A DNA stretch of 64,000 nucleotides from Nitrospinota bacterium (GTDB lineage: Bacteria; Nitrospinota; Nitrospinia; Nitrospinales; VA-1), in contig JAQCGX010000006.1 of the NCBI GenBank assembly GCA_027619975.1, forward strand, positions 1-64,000. The letters are read 5' to 3'. Position numbers and translations under genes: made by a program. A model generated the notes under the pieces. The model was not told where the DNA came from. It ran no database searches and saw only the letters and a list, made by a program, of their open reading frames with translations. Below, piece after piece: positions 14,701 through 22,392 of this stretch (the stretch's first letter is position 1; the number at the start of each line of letters is the position of its first letter).

Positions 14701-15351
14701 TTAGCCCTCGCGCTCTTCCTGAAGCTCAACTTCCAACTCTTCCTTTTTTTCAGGTTCCATTCTTTGTTGGTTCGCCAATTTTGTAATGTGGCTCCACAAT
14801 TCCTTTCGCCCCAGACCGCTTTTACTTGAATACACGATCAACTCCCTGGGCCCTTCCCCGATAAAAGCCGCTTTTATTTTTTTTATCTGTTTGCTCTTTT
14901 CTCCGGCGGAAAGCTTGTCGCATTTTGTTGCCACCAGGATGTAGCCGATCGCATTCGCATCGAGCCATTCTTTCAGCTCCAGATCCAGCGATGTTGGATT
15001 GCGACGCAGGTCGATGATAAATATCAAGGCGGTCAGAGATGTCCTGGTGAGCAGATATTGTTCGATCATTTGTTTCCACTTGCGCTGAATGACCGCCGGG
15101 ACTTTTGCGAATCCATAACCGGGAAGGTCGGTGAAGATCAGGTCTTCGTTGACCTTGAAAAAATTGATGTGCTGGGTTTTCCCTGGTGTGGAGCTGGTGC
15201 GCACCAGTTTTTTGCGGTTGAGCAAAGATCGTAGCAGGGAAGACTTCCCGACATTGGAGCGTCCTGCGAAGGCAAACTCCGGGCAGGAACTGTGAGGATA
15301 TTGTTTTTGGGAAACTGCTCCCGTTAGAAATTCTGCGGAAATAACTTTCAC
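14701..15351 (-). CDS. engB: ribosome biogenesis GTPase EngB/YsxC
   Basis: EngB is a TrmE-Era-class GTPase needed for assembly of the large ribosomal subunit. G-motifs are clear: GRSNVGKSSLLRSL (G1), TPGKTQHINFF (G2), DLPGYGFA (G3) and TKCDKLS (G4). The GTG at 15351 gives a 216-residue protein, close to the family norm of about 200, and has AAAGG 7 nt upstream. A longer reading from 15408 adds 19 non-conserved residues. The C-terminus ends in a short acidic tail. Confidence 0.93.
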   Translation of the reverse strand: MKVISAEFLTGAVSQKQYPHSSCPEFAFAGRSNVGKSSLLRSLLNRKKLVRTSSTPGKTQHINFFKVNEDLIFTDLPGYGFAKVPAVIQRKWKQMIEQYLLTRTSLTALIFIIDLRRNPTSLDLELKEWLDANAIGYILVATKCDKLSAGEKSKQIKKIKAAFIGEGPRELIVYSSKSGLGRKELWSHITKLANQQRMEPEKKEELEVELQEEREG

Positions 15352-15414
15352 AAAGAGACCTTTAAAGAGTAATATTTTTTGGCTTTTGCAACCGCCAAGG
15401 ATTCTCATTGAAAA

Positions 15415-15485: not shown

Positions 15486-15941
15486 TCAGATCGCCTCACA
15501 TTCGCACAATTCCCGGATGTAGCGGACGAGGGAATGGATGGTGTCCTCATCCAGAGTGTTTCCCCAACTGGGCATGCAGGGTGCCCGTCCGACCGCCAGG
15601 CCGCCCTGTTGGATGGCATCGAACAATTGGGAGTCGGTGCGGGTCTCAAGATAATCCGCCTTCGTGTGATCTCGGGGCGGTACGGTCAACAGTTTAGCGT
15701 TGATGCCATTGCCCTTGCCCGTCACCCCATGACACTGGGTGCAATACCACTGGTACACGTCTCTGGTTTTTTCGGTGACCGGGTATGTTTCGAGGGCCGG
15801 GGTTGGCGGCGTCGATGGGGCCTCTGCTGTCTGTGGCGTTGTCGGTGGGACAACCCTGGGAGTTTCCCTGGCATTCTCCCCACAGCCGGTCAATAGCAAC
15901 ACGATCGAGCCAACAAGCAATAGACAGTTTTTTGAGATCAT
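15486..15941 (-). CDS. monoheme cytochrome c lipoprotein
   Basis: The 151-residue protein has a lipobox (LLLTGC, Cys20), then a Pro/Thr-rich spacer, then a class I cytochrome c domain with heme motif C67-T-Q-C70-H71. PCMPSWGNTL probably supplies the axial Met, and the helix SLVRYIRELC ends the fold. It should be a membrane-anchored electron carrier on the outside of the inner membrane or on the outer membrane. It is the last gene of a four-gene cytochrome cluster, 6 bp after the diheme gene. Confidence 0.9.
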   Translation of the reverse strand: MISKNCLLLVGSIVLLLTGCGENARETPRVVPPTTPQTAEAPSTPPTPALETYPVTEKTRDVYQWYCTQCHGVTGKGNGINAKLLTVPPRDHTKADYLETRTDSQLFDAIQQGGLAVGRAPCMPSWGNTLDEDTIHSLVRYIRELCECEAI

Positions 15942-15947
15942 GTCGTT

Positions 15948-16616
15948 CTATTTCCAATCGCCGATTTTGAGAGTCATCATGTATTTAGTGAGTTTGATTG
16001 CGGTGGCATCATCAAATTTATATAAGGGCATGCGGCTTTTGGGTAGAATTTTTTCCGGAGTCTTCAGTTTATTGAAAACCCAGTTTGCTTTCAGGCGGTT
16101 GCCCGCGTTTGCGAGAGAAGGTCCTGAAATGCCGCCACGGGCTTGTCCGGCTAGATTGATCCCCTCGTGACAGGCGATGCAGCCGTAATTTCTTTCAAAC
16201 AGGATCTTGGTTCTCACTCGTTCGCTTTTTGTGAGCGGTGTGTCATCCATCTGTTCTGTGGCCAAATCGGGCAATGACAGGGATATCAAAAACTCAGTCA
16301 TCTTTGCAGCCTCTTTGCGAGAGAGCGCGGGATGTGGTTGGGCCAGAGTGGGAGCCCCTTTCAGAAACCCCGGATCGTTGATGGTCCCAGCCTTGCGGAT
16401 GACCATAGGGTTTTGCAGAAACTTCTCCAGCCAGTTTTTTTGAAATTTGTTGCCAGCGTAAAACAGGTCGGGAGCCTTGTGGGACTCGGTGGGTTCATCG
16501 CTTGAAAATCGGTGGCACGAGGTGCAACCCAGTTTTTCAGGAAGGGTAGAATCTGCCTGAACCGAAGACGTTATGATAAGACATCCAAATAATAGAGCGG
16601 GTATGAAAAACTTCAT
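15948..16616 (-). CDS. diheme cytochrome c
   Basis: From the ATG at 16616 the protein has 222 residues: a signal peptide cleaved near VQA-DS, and two cytochrome domains with CTSCH (31-35) and CIACH (146-150). Possible axial Met residues occur in each half, for example in SRMPLYKF. A longer reading to 16835 would overlap the decaheme gene and lacks conserved features, so it is rejected. The start is 7 bp downstream of the decaheme stop, which implies one transcript. It probably relays electrons between the large multiheme proteins and the lipoprotein cytochrome. Confidence 0.88.
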   Translation of the reverse strand: MKFFIPALLFGCLIITSSVQADSTLPEKLGCTSCHRFSSDEPTESHKAPDLFYAGNKFQKNWLEKFLQNPMVIRKAGTINDPGFLKGAPTLAQPHPALSRKEAAKMTEFLISLSLPDLATEQMDDTPLTKSERVRTKILFERNYGCIACHEGINLAGQARGGISGPSLANAGNRLKANWVFNKLKTPEKILPKSRMPLYKFDDATAIKLTKYMMTLKIGDWK

Positions 16617-16623
16617 GCGGCTT

Positions 16624-19572
16624 TTATTCTGTTGGAGGTGATGGATCCGGGTTTGCGAGAGGAGGCTGAGGCGAACCTTCCTTAAAGATGCCTTGGAAAA
16701 AATCGACGATGGCATTGCCTTCTTCCTTAAGAGTTTGCTCTTTGGGTGGTTGAGGAAGGTCATTGGATTCAGGTAACTCCACCACAGGGGCCTGTTCCGC
16801 CAGGGGTGCGGGAGTTTGCAGATAAGGGGCATCATTAATTTCTACCTGAAAACTGGGGCTTTGACCCGTCTCTGATGTTGCTGGGCTTTCAGGTTCCTGG
16901 GCTCGTTTTTCGAGGATATCCTTTAAAGAAGTGCCGGAAGCAAAGAACTGGTTTTTTTCGAAATCATAATACAAATCCTCGACCGGAGTGGGGTGGCCAT
17001 AACTTTTTTCGTTGGCTAGATGTTTCAGGTCATAAGGAAATTCATTGCGAATGAGAAGCCGGGGATACTGAAGGTTTCGCAAATTCAGGTAACGAAAGGC
17101 TCGATAGGTATCGCTTTTTTGCACCAAGGCGGCAATTTCTTTGGATTTTAGAAATCGGGTTTCCTTGGGAGGAACCGCAGTTTGCAGAACGGTTCCCTCA
17201 TCCGTGACCATTTGTTTGAGCTGAAATTCCGGGAGCAGGCGGTTGTTCTTATTGAATTCGGTGAAGAACATTTTCCCATCCTGGATAGACCGTTTGAGAG
17301 GATTGCCCAATCCCATCGCCACATTGCTTTCATGACAGCTTTCGCAACTGCGTACCGATTTGCGGATGGTATGTGGCGTATGGGGAACCAGAATCAGGCT
17401 GGGCTTGTCATCTACTGTTTTCAGAACTTCCCCTCTTTTCCCTGAGGGTAGATTTTTCCCGCTCCGTTCGGAAAGAAAATACTGATACCTCGGTTTCATG
17501 ACGGTATATTTTTCCTGGGCGTTTTTCCCAAGAATCATATCCTTCCAGCCGGTTTCTGTAAAAATATCCCACCACAGTCCATCGACCCAGGTTCCATCAA
17601 TTCCGTCAGGATTTGACTTTGCCGTCAACCAGTCGAGCATTTTTCCTGGCGCGGCCTGTTCATTTTTTTGAGACAGCAATTGTTGTAAAGTCGGATCAGA
17701 AAAACTCCAGTTTTTCCATTTGTCCAGATCGAGCGAGGGTTCCTTAATGAGGTGCATTCCCCAGTCACTGGCCGACCAGCGGGCGTGGCAGGTGTGGCAC
17801 TCCATAGAGGTCATGTGTTTGTTCACCTGATGAGCGGGCGGTTGCTTAATATTTTTTAGAATGGGGATGACATGTTTTTTGCCGGTGACTTTGGAATAAA
17901 GGACCCATTGTTTTTTGTCGCGCTTGATATGCGGCATTCGGACTCCATCGGAGCTGACCAGGATGATGTTGCCTGCCTGAATTTTTTTTCTCAGGTTGGA
18001 ATTCCTGTTCACGCTTTTTAATATTTCCGTGGTGTTAGGGTCGGATTGCACCAACAGGAACTCCGCCGGTTCCTTGGAATGGGTTCCATGACAGTCCTTG
18101 CAGCGGATTTTTATCTGGGAGTGCATGCCGGGTGAACCTGGCGTTTCTTTGATGCCGTTGGTTCCGTGGCAGTCGATGCAGTGCATCCCGCGTTCACGGT
18201 GGATGTCCGGGAGCAAAAGTTCGTGCTCGCTTCCATAGAGGACGGGTTTTTCAAAGTCGGTTTTTGTTCCCGTGAGATGCGGCCGGGCGGGTTTCCTCAA
18301 CAAACCTTCAAACTCGTTGCCGACCCCATTGGCGTTATGGCAATGCTCGCATTGGACGCTTGGAATCGCCAGTGTGAATTTATGCATCACGGGGTACCCG
18401 CGTTTATTTTTCAAGGACTGGGAAGCATGCCCCTGTTGAAAACGAGTTTTATTTTCCTGGGCATATGTTTGCTGTTGGGATTGAACCGCCCGGTCCTGGG
18501 TCAAGGTGAGTCCGTCGTTTCCATAGACCATGTGGCAGGATGCACAGCCAGTGGCCCGGTAATCTCCCGAGCGGTGTGGGGATTCGCCCTGAACATGACA
18601 GCGGAGGCATTTCGTCCGCAAAAATGAATCGACCGGATGTTCCTTGCCCGCAAGTGGCAAGAGGGTTTCCAGAGCTTCTGCATTGGGGCGCAGGGAATAC
18701 TTTGCTTTATCATAAGGTTGAGCGCCCCAGGCGTATCGGGTGGTATTGATAATTCCCTTGGCAGTGGTCATGGCGGACTGCTCGACCATTTTAATCTGCT
18801 GGGCGTGGCATTTTCCGCAAAATTTCGCGGCGTGGTCCAGGTCCGAGGGGTTGGCCACCAAATCCTTGTGTGCCTGGGGGAGAGTTTTGGCTCTGCGGTT
18901 GCCGCCATGGCATTGGGTGCATCTGAACTTATGGTTTGAACTGATTTCTTCAATGCCCCTATGGCAATGCAGACATCCCTGGCTGGATTCCAATTGCACG
19001 ACGTCCTCAAAAACTTCGTCCAGGGAGAAGTTGGTGTTGCGGTAAAAATTTTCCATGAACTTGTTGGAGTCGGCATAGGAAAAGAACTGAAGACCATCGA
19101 CCGTGACTCCAGGTTGCAAAACCTGTGGAGAATTTTCCTGAAACCCGCGAACAAAGAAAAAAGGATCGCGGAAATCACCGGCATCGACAAATGGTTTTTT
19201 CTGAAAAACGGGAACCTGAACCGTTCTTTTTTTCTGAGGAGAAACAGGCGGTAAATCTTTGATGCCGGGACCATCCAGTCTACCTTCTTTAGGCGTTGCC
19301 GGTGGCGCTTCTTCTACAAAAGTGGATTCGGAAATGGCTTTTTTTGCCTCGGAAGTTTCTGAACTCTCCAGGGGAAGCGGCCATTGAAACAAATCCGGGG
19401 TCTGGATGTCAGGCGTTTCATTTTCTCCAGGCTCGGTAGCTGGGAGCGGTTGGTTGAGGTCTTCCCGTTGCTCAAGTGGATGTTCAACTTGGCCATAAAT
19501 AGAGGATGCCGTCATGCTTACGAGCAATAAAACCAGAAGAGTGGCAAACCAGAATTTTTTTATCAGGAGCAT
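16624..19572 (-). CDS. decaheme c-type cytochrome with Pro-rich N- and C-terminal extensions
   Basis: The 982-residue exported protein has a signal peptide, then a low-complexity Pro/Glu/Thr region to about residue 120. Ten CXXCH motifs follow: CLHCH (200), CTQCH (218), CGKCH, CLRCH, CASCH, CEHCH, CIDCH, CKDCH, CHTCH and CESCH. After the last heme comes a long tail rich in Pro, Glu and Gln. The heme block follows the same order as the dodecaheme protein upstream: CHRGIEEISSNH against CHDGIEEVSASH, and GCASCHMVYGNDG against GCAACHFTYSEDG. The two are therefore paralogues. No porin or quinol oxidase gene is adjacent, and the electron donor and acceptor are unknown. Confidence 0.9.
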   Translation of the reverse strand: MLLIKKFWFATLLVLLLVSMTASSIYGQVEHPLEQREDLNQPLPATEPGENETPDIQTPDLFQWPLPLESSETSEAKKAISESTFVEEAPPATPKEGRLDGPGIKDLPPVSPQKKRTVQVPVFQKKPFVDAGDFRDPFFFVRGFQENSPQVLQPGVTVDGLQFFSYADSNKFMENFYRNTNFSLDEVFEDVVQLESSQGCLHCHRGIEEISSNHKFRCTQCHGGNRRAKTLPQAHKDLVANPSDLDHAAKFCGKCHAQQIKMVEQSAMTTAKGIINTTRYAWGAQPYDKAKYSLRPNAEALETLLPLAGKEHPVDSFLRTKCLRCHVQGESPHRSGDYRATGCASCHMVYGNDGLTLTQDRAVQSQQQTYAQENKTRFQQGHASQSLKNKRGYPVMHKFTLAIPSVQCEHCHNANGVGNEFEGLLRKPARPHLTGTKTDFEKPVLYGSEHELLLPDIHRERGMHCIDCHGTNGIKETPGSPGMHSQIKIRCKDCHGTHSKEPAEFLLVQSDPNTTEILKSVNRNSNLRKKIQAGNIILVSSDGVRMPHIKRDKKQWVLYSKVTGKKHVIPILKNIKQPPAHQVNKHMTSMECHTCHARWSASDWGMHLIKEPSLDLDKWKNWSFSDPTLQQLLSQKNEQAAPGKMLDWLTAKSNPDGIDGTWVDGLWWDIFTETGWKDMILGKNAQEKYTVMKPRYQYFLSERSGKNLPSGKRGEVLKTVDDKPSLILVPHTPHTIRKSVRSCESCHESNVAMGLGNPLKRSIQDGKMFFTEFNKNNRLLPEFQLKQMVTDEGTVLQTAVPPKETRFLKSKEIAALVQKSDTYRAFRYLNLRNLQYPRLLIRNEFPYDLKHLANEKSYGHPTPVEDLYYDFEKNQFFASGTSLKDILEKRAQEPESPATSETGQSPSFQVEINDAPYLQTPAPLAEQAPVVELPESNDLPQPPKEQTLKEEGNAIVDFFQGIFKEGSPQPPLANPDPSPPTE

Positions 19573-19580
19573 GCGTGAAA

Positions 19581-21749
19581 TTATTTCTTGTTTAAAATTT
19601 TGTTTCTGAGTTTACGATGAGCTGCCTTTTGTTCAAACGCGTAACTTTTTTTCATGTCCCGATAGATCCGATCGCTGTAGCGATCGTGGCAGGGGATGCA
19701 ATTGCCCACTCGGAGAATCCGCGTGATTTCTTCCTGATTGAAAGGGCGGGCCCCTGTCTGGCTGGTTCCTGAAAGAGGCTCCCCGCGAACACTGACTTTA
19801 GCATCTGGTGCCAAACTGGAATTGTGTTTGACGATATCCGATTGAACAAGAGCTGTCATTTGATCCGCTGCTCCCGACGATTTTCGCCCCAGCGACAAAT
19901 CTCCCTCTCCCAACCCCACGGTTTCCGGCGACAAATGACAGCTGGCGCAGGATCTCACTTTTTTGCCAACGGAATGAGGGGCAACGGCATACGCGAGGTT
20001 GGACCCGGAATAACCATGCGGATTGGTAAAAGTCCAATTCTTGTAGGGGCCACGCGAATCGCCATTTTTTGCCAAAGCGGCGATTGGATTTCCCTTCTCG
20101 TCCGTAAAAGTTAAAGTCCTTTGCGGTTGCGGAAGCATGGGGACGACTTTTCCCTTAGGACCGACCATGAGACTGGGAAGAGTCACCTTGGGTGCAGAAG
20201 GCGATAACTGCCATAAATTTTTGTTATCCGTGGACTCATTGTCACTGCGGTTGACAGTAAGAGAATGGCAACCCTGGCATTCGGGAACCCATTGGGAATG
20301 GCAGGCCGAACATTCCAGCTTTTCATTGTGCGCCGGGATGACATGAGCTTTCTTTCCTCCCCGGATCGTCGGGGTGCGGTACTTGTGCCCACTGATTTTC
20401 CCAAGAGTGATGATTTTATTTTCCAGCATTTTGACATTGGTCAATTTGCGTTTGCGGGCAGATAGGATCATGTGGTCATCGATGGAATTGGTCCAGCCGT
20501 TGTAATGCTGACTCAGGCGGATCACCCGATCTTTCGGGTCGGTCACCTTTTCGGCGACGGGTAGAGAATTGCTGTCCCCGTGACAGGTCTCACACCGGAC
20601 TTCAACGGCCTGATGCTGTTTGGAATAGAGGTTGCCGTCGCCCATGATATCAAACTGGGTATGGCAGTCAATACAATCAAAACCTATTTCAAAGTGAACG
20701 TCCTGGTGTATCTGTCCTTCCCCTGGAAACAACGGCAAGGGGCTTGCTGCATTTTCCTCAGGGTCGGGCTGAGGGACAGAACCCGTGGCCTTATGGCACT
20801 GAGTGCAAAGGATATTTGGGGTCAGGGCAGTCATTTTGTGAAACGTGGGATGCCCCGGTTCCGTCCGTGACAGGGTTGGGTCTTGGCCTTTGTACAAACC
20901 ATCTTCGGAATAGGTGAAGTGGCAGGCGGCGCATCCCTGGGACCGGAATTCCCCCGGTGCTGGCGGGGAGTCCAGATGACATTGAAAACATTTTTGTCGC
21001 AACACCCGGTCCCCCACGTGGCGGGAAACCCGCGCCGCTTTAATATTTCCCAAAAGATGGGGTTTTTCTCGCCCCTTACTGGGAGAGTACAGGGGCAACG
21101 CCTCCAAATGAGATAACGCTCCCTCTTCTTCCGGGATTTGACCATCCGCGTCCGTTACCGGGTAGGCTCCGTATTTGGCGGTGGGCGTGCTTTGCGCGGA
21201 CCATTGATAACGCAAGCCGGAAATCACCCCTGCCAGGGTGCCCATCATCGATTTTTTGACCCGTTGAATATGGTTGCGATCCTGTTGGGCGTGTCCCGCG
21301 TGACAATTCAATTGGCCGCAGGATTTGTCAGCCACCAGCAGACTGGACGGGTTGCGTTTCCCCGTTCCGGCATTGGGGTCAAAAATCAGTGTGGCATGGG
21401 CGGCATTTTTTTGTACCGAATCTCCATTGCCCCCGTGACACACGGTGCAGCCAAACTCGCGCGGATGCGAGGCGCTGACCTCTTCAATGCCGTCATGGCA
21501 GGTGATGCATTTTTCATGGGTTTGATTCCGGTAGCTGAATACGTGGACTTCAGGAGTGTCCTTTAGGGTGGCGGTGACTTCGACGTCTTTGATACGGAGA
21601 GTGGGGTTTTCAGGAGCGACGCCTTTTTCGGTCTGCATTCGGTTGAATTGCTCCTGCCAGGAACTCCAATCGTTTTCTTCGGCCTGAACAGAGAAGGCAA
21701 CCAATAGCGCGGATAAAAGAAAAAGAAAAGCCGAGCGCAAATTATACAC
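19581..21749 (-). CDS. dodecaheme c-type cytochrome with one CX4CH motif
   Basis: The 722-residue exported protein has a signal peptide cleaved near VQA-EE. Twelve heme motifs are present: CITCH (81), CTVCH (101), CGQLNCH (144-150, a CX4CH form), CFQCH, CAACH, CTQCH, CIDCH, CETCH, CSACH, CQGCH, CASCH and CIPCH. Besides the paralogous block shared with the decaheme gene downstream, it has extra hemes near the C-terminus (CQGCH and CIPCH). The start at 21749 is a GTG without a clear Shine-Dalgarno and is the least certain point. It heads the four-gene cytochrome cluster, with an 8-bp gap to the next gene. Confidence 0.9.
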   Translation of the reverse strand: MYNLRSAFLFLLSALLVAFSVQAEENDWSSWQEQFNRMQTEKGVAPENPTLRIKDVEVTATLKDTPEVHVFSYRNQTHEKCITCHDGIEEVSASHPREFGCTVCHGGNGDSVQKNAAHATLIFDPNAGTGKRNPSSLLVADKSCGQLNCHAGHAQQDRNHIQRVKKSMMGTLAGVISGLRYQWSAQSTPTAKYGAYPVTDADGQIPEEEGALSHLEALPLYSPSKGREKPHLLGNIKAARVSRHVGDRVLRQKCFQCHLDSPPAPGEFRSQGCAACHFTYSEDGLYKGQDPTLSRTEPGHPTFHKMTALTPNILCTQCHKATGSVPQPDPEENAASPLPLFPGEGQIHQDVHFEIGFDCIDCHTQFDIMGDGNLYSKQHQAVEVRCETCHGDSNSLPVAEKVTDPKDRVIRLSQHYNGWTNSIDDHMILSARKRKLTNVKMLENKIITLGKISGHKYRTPTIRGGKKAHVIPAHNEKLECSACHSQWVPECQGCHSLTVNRSDNESTDNKNLWQLSPSAPKVTLPSLMVGPKGKVVPMLPQPQRTLTFTDEKGNPIAALAKNGDSRGPYKNWTFTNPHGYSGSNLAYAVAPHSVGKKVRSCASCHLSPETVGLGEGDLSLGRKSSGAADQMTALVQSDIVKHNSSLAPDAKVSVRGEPLSGTSQTGARPFNQEEITRILRVGNCIPCHDRYSDRIYRDMKKSYAFEQKAAHRKLRNKILNKK

Positions 21750-21832: not shown

Positions 21833-22159
21833 CTATTTGTATACCACGTCCACCCGTTCAAGAAAATCGCAAAGATCTTGCAACGCGTCTTGAATTTTCT
21901 CGACGCTGGTTTCATTTGCGCCCTCTTCCAGACTCAAACCAACGGCGCTGATAAAATCAAAACCATATCCCCCGCCAGAACCTTTCATGGTGTGGCCCAT
22001 ACGTTGGATCAACTCAAAATCTTTATTGTTCAAGGCTTCCCGGATCTCTTCGATATCTTTCTGTCGGTTTTTAAGATATCCAGGAATCAGTTCTTCCAGG
22101 TCCGGATCGACTTCTACGACAATCCTTCCACCTTCGTTTCCTTCAATATTTAGAGTCAT
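21833..22159 (-). CDS. HPt-domain phosphotransfer protein
   Basis: The 108-residue protein is a stand-alone histidine phosphotransfer domain. The phospho-accepting His lies in RMGHTMKGSGGGYGF (about residue 56), and a helical bundle surrounds it. Such proteins shuttle phosphate between hybrid kinases and response regulators, but no kinase or regulator lies beside it. The ATG at 22159 is preferred over a GTG four codons upstream. It lies upstream of the cytochrome cluster on the same strand, so a regulatory link is possible but unproven. Confidence 0.85.
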   Translation of the reverse strand: MTLNIEGNEGGRIVVEVDPDLEELIPGYLKNRQKDIEEIREALNNKDFELIQRMGHTMKGSGGGYGFDFISAVGLSLEEGANETSVEKIQDALQDLCDFLERVDVVYK

Positions 22160-22392
22160 GTCATGATCCACAAGAAGTTATTTGATCCGTGAATATTTTT
22201 CCACAACAAACTTAATTGATACAAAAATTATCACGTTAGGACCCATTGGTAAACCTTTCCTTTTTAAATCGCAAAATCCGGGTCGCGTCTTTGTCCACTG
22301 GATTTCTAGAAACCCATTCAATTTTGACTATTACCGGGAAGATCTTTCACCAGGAGTGTCAATGGCCAGAAGGAGAAAACGTCTTCCAGAAC

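Follow-up and report, generated by a model that had tools for sequence, protein, structure and literature searches.

Nitrite oxidation in the sea is chiefly the work of the order Nitrospinales. Their electron route to oxygen is open, with the final step unclear without a canonical oxidase, and a conserved cluster of bd-like (OR-N) oxidase and alternative NxrC genes, present in Nitrospinota, Nitrospira and anammox bacteria, has been proposed by Mueller et al. to carry nitrite electrons to the oxidase (PMC8026999). In Geobacter, the ext cluster (extHIJKLMNOPQS) encodes ExtM with 12 hemes and ExtN with 10, and after them come genes for a Rieske protein, for a cytochrome b and for a lipoprotein cytochrome; disruption of extI in this ExtM-containing cluster gives a selenite/tellurite reduction phenotype (PMC5877670). 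Four Nitrospinaceae MAGs (OFTM96 among them) carry clusters of at least three multiheme genes, with up to 12 hemes, whose role is called unclear in a 2025 paper (PMC11995701).

The operon described here lies in a window of 64,000 nucleotides from a Nitrospinota MAG of the order Nitrospinales (assembly GCA_027619975.1, contig JAQCGX010000006.1, positions 1 to 64,000). Four co-directional cytochrome genes, in the order A, B, D, L, stand on its minus strand between two conserved neighbors:

21833..22171, minus strand: Hpt-domain protein, conserved upstream neighbor (Pfam PF01627, E 2.5e-9)
19581..21749, minus strand: gene A, dodecaheme c-type cytochrome, predicted exported, ExtM superfamily, 722 aa, GTG start (12 heme sites; NF040943, 277 bits)
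21300..21320, minus strand: heme 3 of A, in the CX4CH form (CGQLNCH), from the motif count
21243..21245, minus strand: Met169 of A, within SxM, candidate axial ligand of heme 3, from conservation
16624..19572, minus strand: gene B, decaheme c-type cytochrome, predicted exported, paralog of A without the positions of hemes 10 and 12, 982 aa (10 heme sites; NF040943, 189.5 bits)
15948..16616, minus strand: gene D, diheme class I cytochrome c, predicted exported, 222 aa (Pfam Cytochrom_C, E 2e-11)
15486..15941, minus strand: gene L, monoheme class I cytochrome c lipoprotein, 151 aa (Pfam Cytochrome_CBB3, E 9.9e-10)
15882..15884, minus strand: Cys20 codon of L, putative lipid anchor, lipobox LTGC with Gly at +2, invariant among aligned L sequences
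14701..15408, minus strand: engB (GTPase), conserved downstream neighbor and boundary marker outside the module (Pfam MMR_HSR1)

The original prediction, of four cytochromes with 1, 2, 10 and 12 hemes (25 in total) encoded in one direction at spacings of 6-8 bp, agrees with the motif count, which finds 12 sites in A (11 CXXCH and one CX4CH), 10 in B, two in D, one in L and no CXXCK in any of them, and with intergenic gaps of 8, 7 and 6 bp. The number of heme motifs in A and B is not a product of chance, since 20,000 residue shuffles yield a mean of 0.11 and a maximum of 3 for A, and a mean of 0.04 and a maximum of 2 for B. (Genome-wide, on both strands, the CXXCH pattern has 236 matches, against 88 for the reversed pattern.) N-terminal signal sequences are seen by inspection on all four proteins, which are predicted to be exported c-type cytochromes. 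For gene D the mechanical reading frame starts at 16835, and the ATG at 16616 was taken as the start because a signal peptide opens there and all relatives align with it. We infer co-transcription of the four genes from their spacing; a weak terminator-like hairpin lies directly 3' of L, such sites being no commoner in the scan than expected by chance. A Pfam scan of the neighbors, from about 11 to 28 kb of the window, finds the Hpt protein on the upstream side, engB on the downstream side together with a [2Fe-2S] thioredoxin-like protein, and carbohydrate, RimK, LptF and Ppx genes farther out. No sox gene is among these scanned neighbors, nor any porin, quinol dehydrogenase or terminal reductase, the latter three having been correctly predicted to be missing. 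A plasmid search returned one weak match only.

The operon has one fixed chromosomal locus in almost all Nitrospinales. In a phylum set of 77 genomes, A scores above 300 bits in 56 of the 64 members of the order and in none of the 13 class members outside it, where the best score is 122 bits; in G044, one of the eight Nitrospinales genomes without A, the locus is represented by its B end, at the edge of a contig. D follows A on the same strand in all 43 informative genomes, that is, those with A and D on one contig (G057, a scaffold whose pieces are linked by stretches of N, was left out of this count for that reason). The figures 56, 64 and 43 are tallies by eye from the result tables. Hpt is directly upstream of A at most loci, and together with engB downstream it brackets the locus in most families. 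Relatives of A among 84,980 species genomes number 16, all from Nitrospinota, in a scan that used a single sequence and so reaches close relatives only. An enrichment lineage is represented among the loci (L019, the MSP isolate record). A search with an NXR beta-subunit model, which misses NXR in fragmented MAGs such as several of the compared genomes, finds an NXR-like NxrB encoded in the window's own genome.

Every full-length A carries 12 heme sites, and full-length B has 10 with two exceptions, L007, whose B contains unread bases, and L005, where an in-frame TGA (L005:13406-13408) replaces the first Cys of heme motif 6 (VQ*EHCH). Selenocysteine at this codon was considered and rejected because none of the genomes tested yielded a tRNA-Sec that scores over the gathering threshold; a nonsense change or an assembly error is the likelier explanation.

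Locus L016 is from the MAG OFTM96 and carries the four-gene operon, so the multiheme clusters noted in that MAG and its three companions are probably the A-B-D-L operon; in its accessible portion, that account neither assigns the clusters a family or a role nor gives their composition or an analysis of their conservation (PMC11995701). The genome papers searched for heme terms describe no such module in the text available, and our literature search found no account of the relationship to ExtM, the order-wide conservation, the paralogy of A and B, or the link of D and L to the oxidase cluster.

Against the NCBIfam model for ExtM, NF040943, A scores 277 bits (E 2.7e-82) and B 189.5 bits (E 8e-56). 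Neither reaches the whole-protein cut-off of 800 bits for an ExtM equivalog, but both matches are significant, run along the protein and keep the order of the hemes, as in members of the ExtM superfamily. A also aligns over 655 columns (E 5e-59) with a 12-heme relative of similar ExtM score at L073. A profile match of A to B covers 546 columns (probability 100, E 8e-70), by which the two are paralogous to each other. All 12 heme sites of A are invariant in 15 aligned relatives. B has probably descended from a 12-heme ancestor with loss of hemes 10 and 12, because an SAxxWG-like stretch replaces the heme-10 site in each of the 13 sequences of B that were displayed, and no heme site is present around position 12; its ends are rich in Pro and Glu. 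The search of solved structures with the sequences of A and B returned nothing significant (best E 0.11), which together with the lack of CXXCK places neither among NrfA or the octaheme nitrite or tetrathionate reductases. Structure prediction of A reached a mean pLDDT of 35.7 with 15 sequences and 47.8 with 24, and a fold search with the latter model gave no match at E 0.001.

Heme 3 has the CX4CH form in A and the CXXCH form in the aligned B and L073 sequences, and it is followed in both A and B by SxM, whose Met (Met169) is conserved in A, in 85% of B sequences and in two distant relatives. The distal histidine of cytochrome c554-type proteins comes from an SxH in a comparable position. Because SxM stands where those proteins have SxH, heme 3 of A is possibly Met-ligated or open.

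The main rival to the reading that we prefer below makes A, alone or together with B, a periplasmic reductase of an oxyanion or metal, comparable to the Geobacter ext system for selenite and tellurite. It would be fed from the cytochrome c pool through D and L, so that flow would run in the opposite direction. Membership of A and B in the ExtM superfamily, the extI phenotype of the Geobacter cluster and the Met near heme 3 in place of the usual His partner all speak for it. The two operons also look alike at first sight: in each, a 10-heme gene comes after a 12-heme gene, and each includes a lipoprotein cytochrome. On the other hand, the scores of A and B are about a third of the equivalog cut-off or less, and the available part of the Geobacter report shows no individual activity for ExtM itself (PMC5877670). 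The ext cluster has no named counterpart of the class I cytochromes D and L, which as high-potential carriers would be poor donors for such reductions. None of the porin ExtI, the rhodanese ExtH, ExtKL, the Rieske protein ExtO, the cytochrome b ExtP and ExtS occurs in the scanned flanks, and the locus likewise lacks ExtN, ExtQ and any selenoprotein gene. Because these genes are missing and B scores higher with ExtM than with ExtN, making it a second ExtM-type protein, the Nitrospinales operon is not an ext operon, although the 12/10-heme parallel is suggestive. We regard the reductase explanation as rather unlikely.

Large multiheme cytochromes accompanied by a cytochrome lipoprotein also recall the porin-cytochrome conduits (Pcc, MtrCAB), and the operon might provide the periplasmic section of an extracellular electron route, with the genes for the outer-membrane section at some other place in the genome. 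The multiheme chain, the membrane tether of L and the occurrence of relatives in metal reducers and cable bacteria fit such a route, as does a separate ExtM-related decaheme that adjoins a barrel-like protein in two Nitrospinales genomes. Unlike the conduits, however, the operon locus has neither an outer-membrane barrel nor a multiheme outer-surface lipoprotein: L has one heme only, no barrel is found among the Pfam-scanned neighbors in the window, and no extra gene, barrel or other, recurs beside the operon in relatives. The barrel-linked paralog is itself absent from the window's genome. An extracellular route is, in our estimate, quite improbable.

In the two genomes with the barrel-linked paralog, at L074:3474-9424 (G058) and L094:7274-13088 (G009), an ExtM-related decaheme with C-terminal LVIVD propeller repeats lies beside a barrel-like protein of 600-640 aa and HbpS-like proteins, a set that could be a porin-cytochrome cluster. 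A WD40-repeat protein with 10 heme motifs is encoded near the set at L094.

The two smaller cytochromes have a different affinity. In D, C31/H35/H95 and C146/H150/M196 are invariant among 13 aligned sequences, so that one heme is likely His/His and the other His/Met; the His/His call for heme 1 is uncertain because the residue aligned with His95 in the sister family f9 is, by eye, apparently Cys. L has invariant C67/H71/M123 besides its lipobox, and could sit on either membrane. (Three further Cys residues of L, at 122, 146 and 148 in the contexts CMP and LCxCE, are invariant in addition to the heme and lipid cysteines and might form a disulfide or metal site.)

D is somewhat SoxX-like, at 50.4 bits against TIGR04485, below the cut-off of 61. 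The operon could accordingly be imagined as a branch for the oxidation of reduced sulfur or another auxiliary donor, passing electrons from a periplasmic dehydrogenase through A and B to D and L and on to an oxidase. Sulfite dehydrogenase-like genes do stand directly upstream at L016 and L017, but they are absent beside most loci, and with D under the SoxX cut-off and the scanned neighbors devoid of sox genes we judge this explanation quite improbable. The genes in question (L017:6081-9452 and their L016 matches) encode a pyridine nucleotide-disulphide oxidoreductase, a sulfite dehydrogenase-like molybdopterin protein and a monoheme cytochrome, immediately ahead of Hpt-A-B-D-L.

A more telling context for D and L comes from genomes in which they stand apart from A and B. 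Two genomes have D-L without any A or B, G030 (97% complete) and G006 (71% complete). In G006, Hpt is followed directly by D, and L is read only from a contig-end frame and a match at G006:C31:26447-26713; near D-L of G030, Hpt is absent. (G030, where D-L lies at L075 on contig C8, is a small genome of 1.7 Mb that does without 22 of the 25 hemes and keeps D-L, possibly an economy of iron.) In family f9, D-L orthologs follow an alternative-NxrC-like protein at L080, L081, L082, L083 and L085, in which two class I hemes are combined with a heme b domain of the ethylbenzene-dehydrogenase type (EB_dh). At L082 a bd-like oxidase heads the run, with two further cytochromes, the whole stretch from oxidase to L being found in one genome only (G073). 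D-L thus belong to the alternative-NxrC cluster in f9, whereas in the window's own genome (contig C22), G010, G047 and G006 the oxidase and alternative-NxrC (EB_dh) genes persist without them; in Nitrospinales D-L sit outside that cluster, behind A-B, which have no counterpart there.

By this distribution D-L is a separable pair, older than the four-gene operon. Because the f9 orthologs sit in the cluster proposed as the nitrite-to-oxidase route, D and L look like oxidase-pathway carriers that in Nitrospinales are encoded with A-B, a link drawn from the D-L orthologs of one other family. Judged from sequence, then, the operon is a combination of ExtM-type cytochromes with carriers of the oxidase pathway. 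The original prediction had gene order as a test of its module, and order and heme number are indeed kept across four families; it also recognized no described complex, and none was matched, yet A and B do have relatives in the ExtM superfamily and are each other's paralogs. The idea of a single indivisible module fails, with D-L occurring both without A-B and inside the sister-family cluster. Among its three guesses at a role, a periplasmic wire fits best, a nitrogen/sulfur redox unit is conceivable, and the extracellular route would have to do without an outer-membrane conduit gene at the locus.

The explanation that we favor, with confidence that is evenly balanced, is that the operon serves as a periplasmic electron relay of the nitrite-oxidizing Nitrospinales, put together from two components that are older than itself. 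The hemes of A and B would be mostly bis-His and would form a periplasmic chain that stores and conducts electrons. Bis-His hemes are usually of low potential. D would step between the hemes of A/B and the high-potential His/Met cytochrome c pool, and L, a His/Met monoheme protein tethered by lipid to a membrane, would dock with the cytochrome c-oxidizing respiratory machinery. The likeliest flow would be from a donor to A/B, then D, then L, then the oxidase, the ligands throughout being inferred from conservation. Because A/B are remotely related to a Geobacter cytochrome of selenite reduction and D-L come from a terminal-oxidase gene cluster, the whole looks like a conserved side branch of Nitrospinales respiration. 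A bolder and rather speculative proposal, which we consider improbable, is that A-B is an ExtM-type respiratory unit joined in the Nitrospinales ancestor to the oxidase's own carriers, so that this pathway would open to marine nitrite oxidizers a donor or acceptor beyond nitrite and oxygen, perhaps a mineral or some unrecognized nitrogen or sulfur compound.

An operon of 25 hemes kept at one locus across an order is a costly investment of iron, and a candidate for an unrecognized branch of the respiratory chain. The link of D-L to the bd-like oxidase cluster makes the idea of a branch testable, and G030 and G006, with D-L and without A-B, offer a natural comparison for the contribution of A-B. 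As a separate observation on respiratory genes in the window's own genome, L088:3720-8754 (contig C3) encodes a Rieske protein, cytochrome b in split form, and a protein of 914 aa that bears 8 heme motifs and has domains similar to ExtS (83.6 bits) and to SoxX; together these would make an unusual cytochrome bc-type complex.
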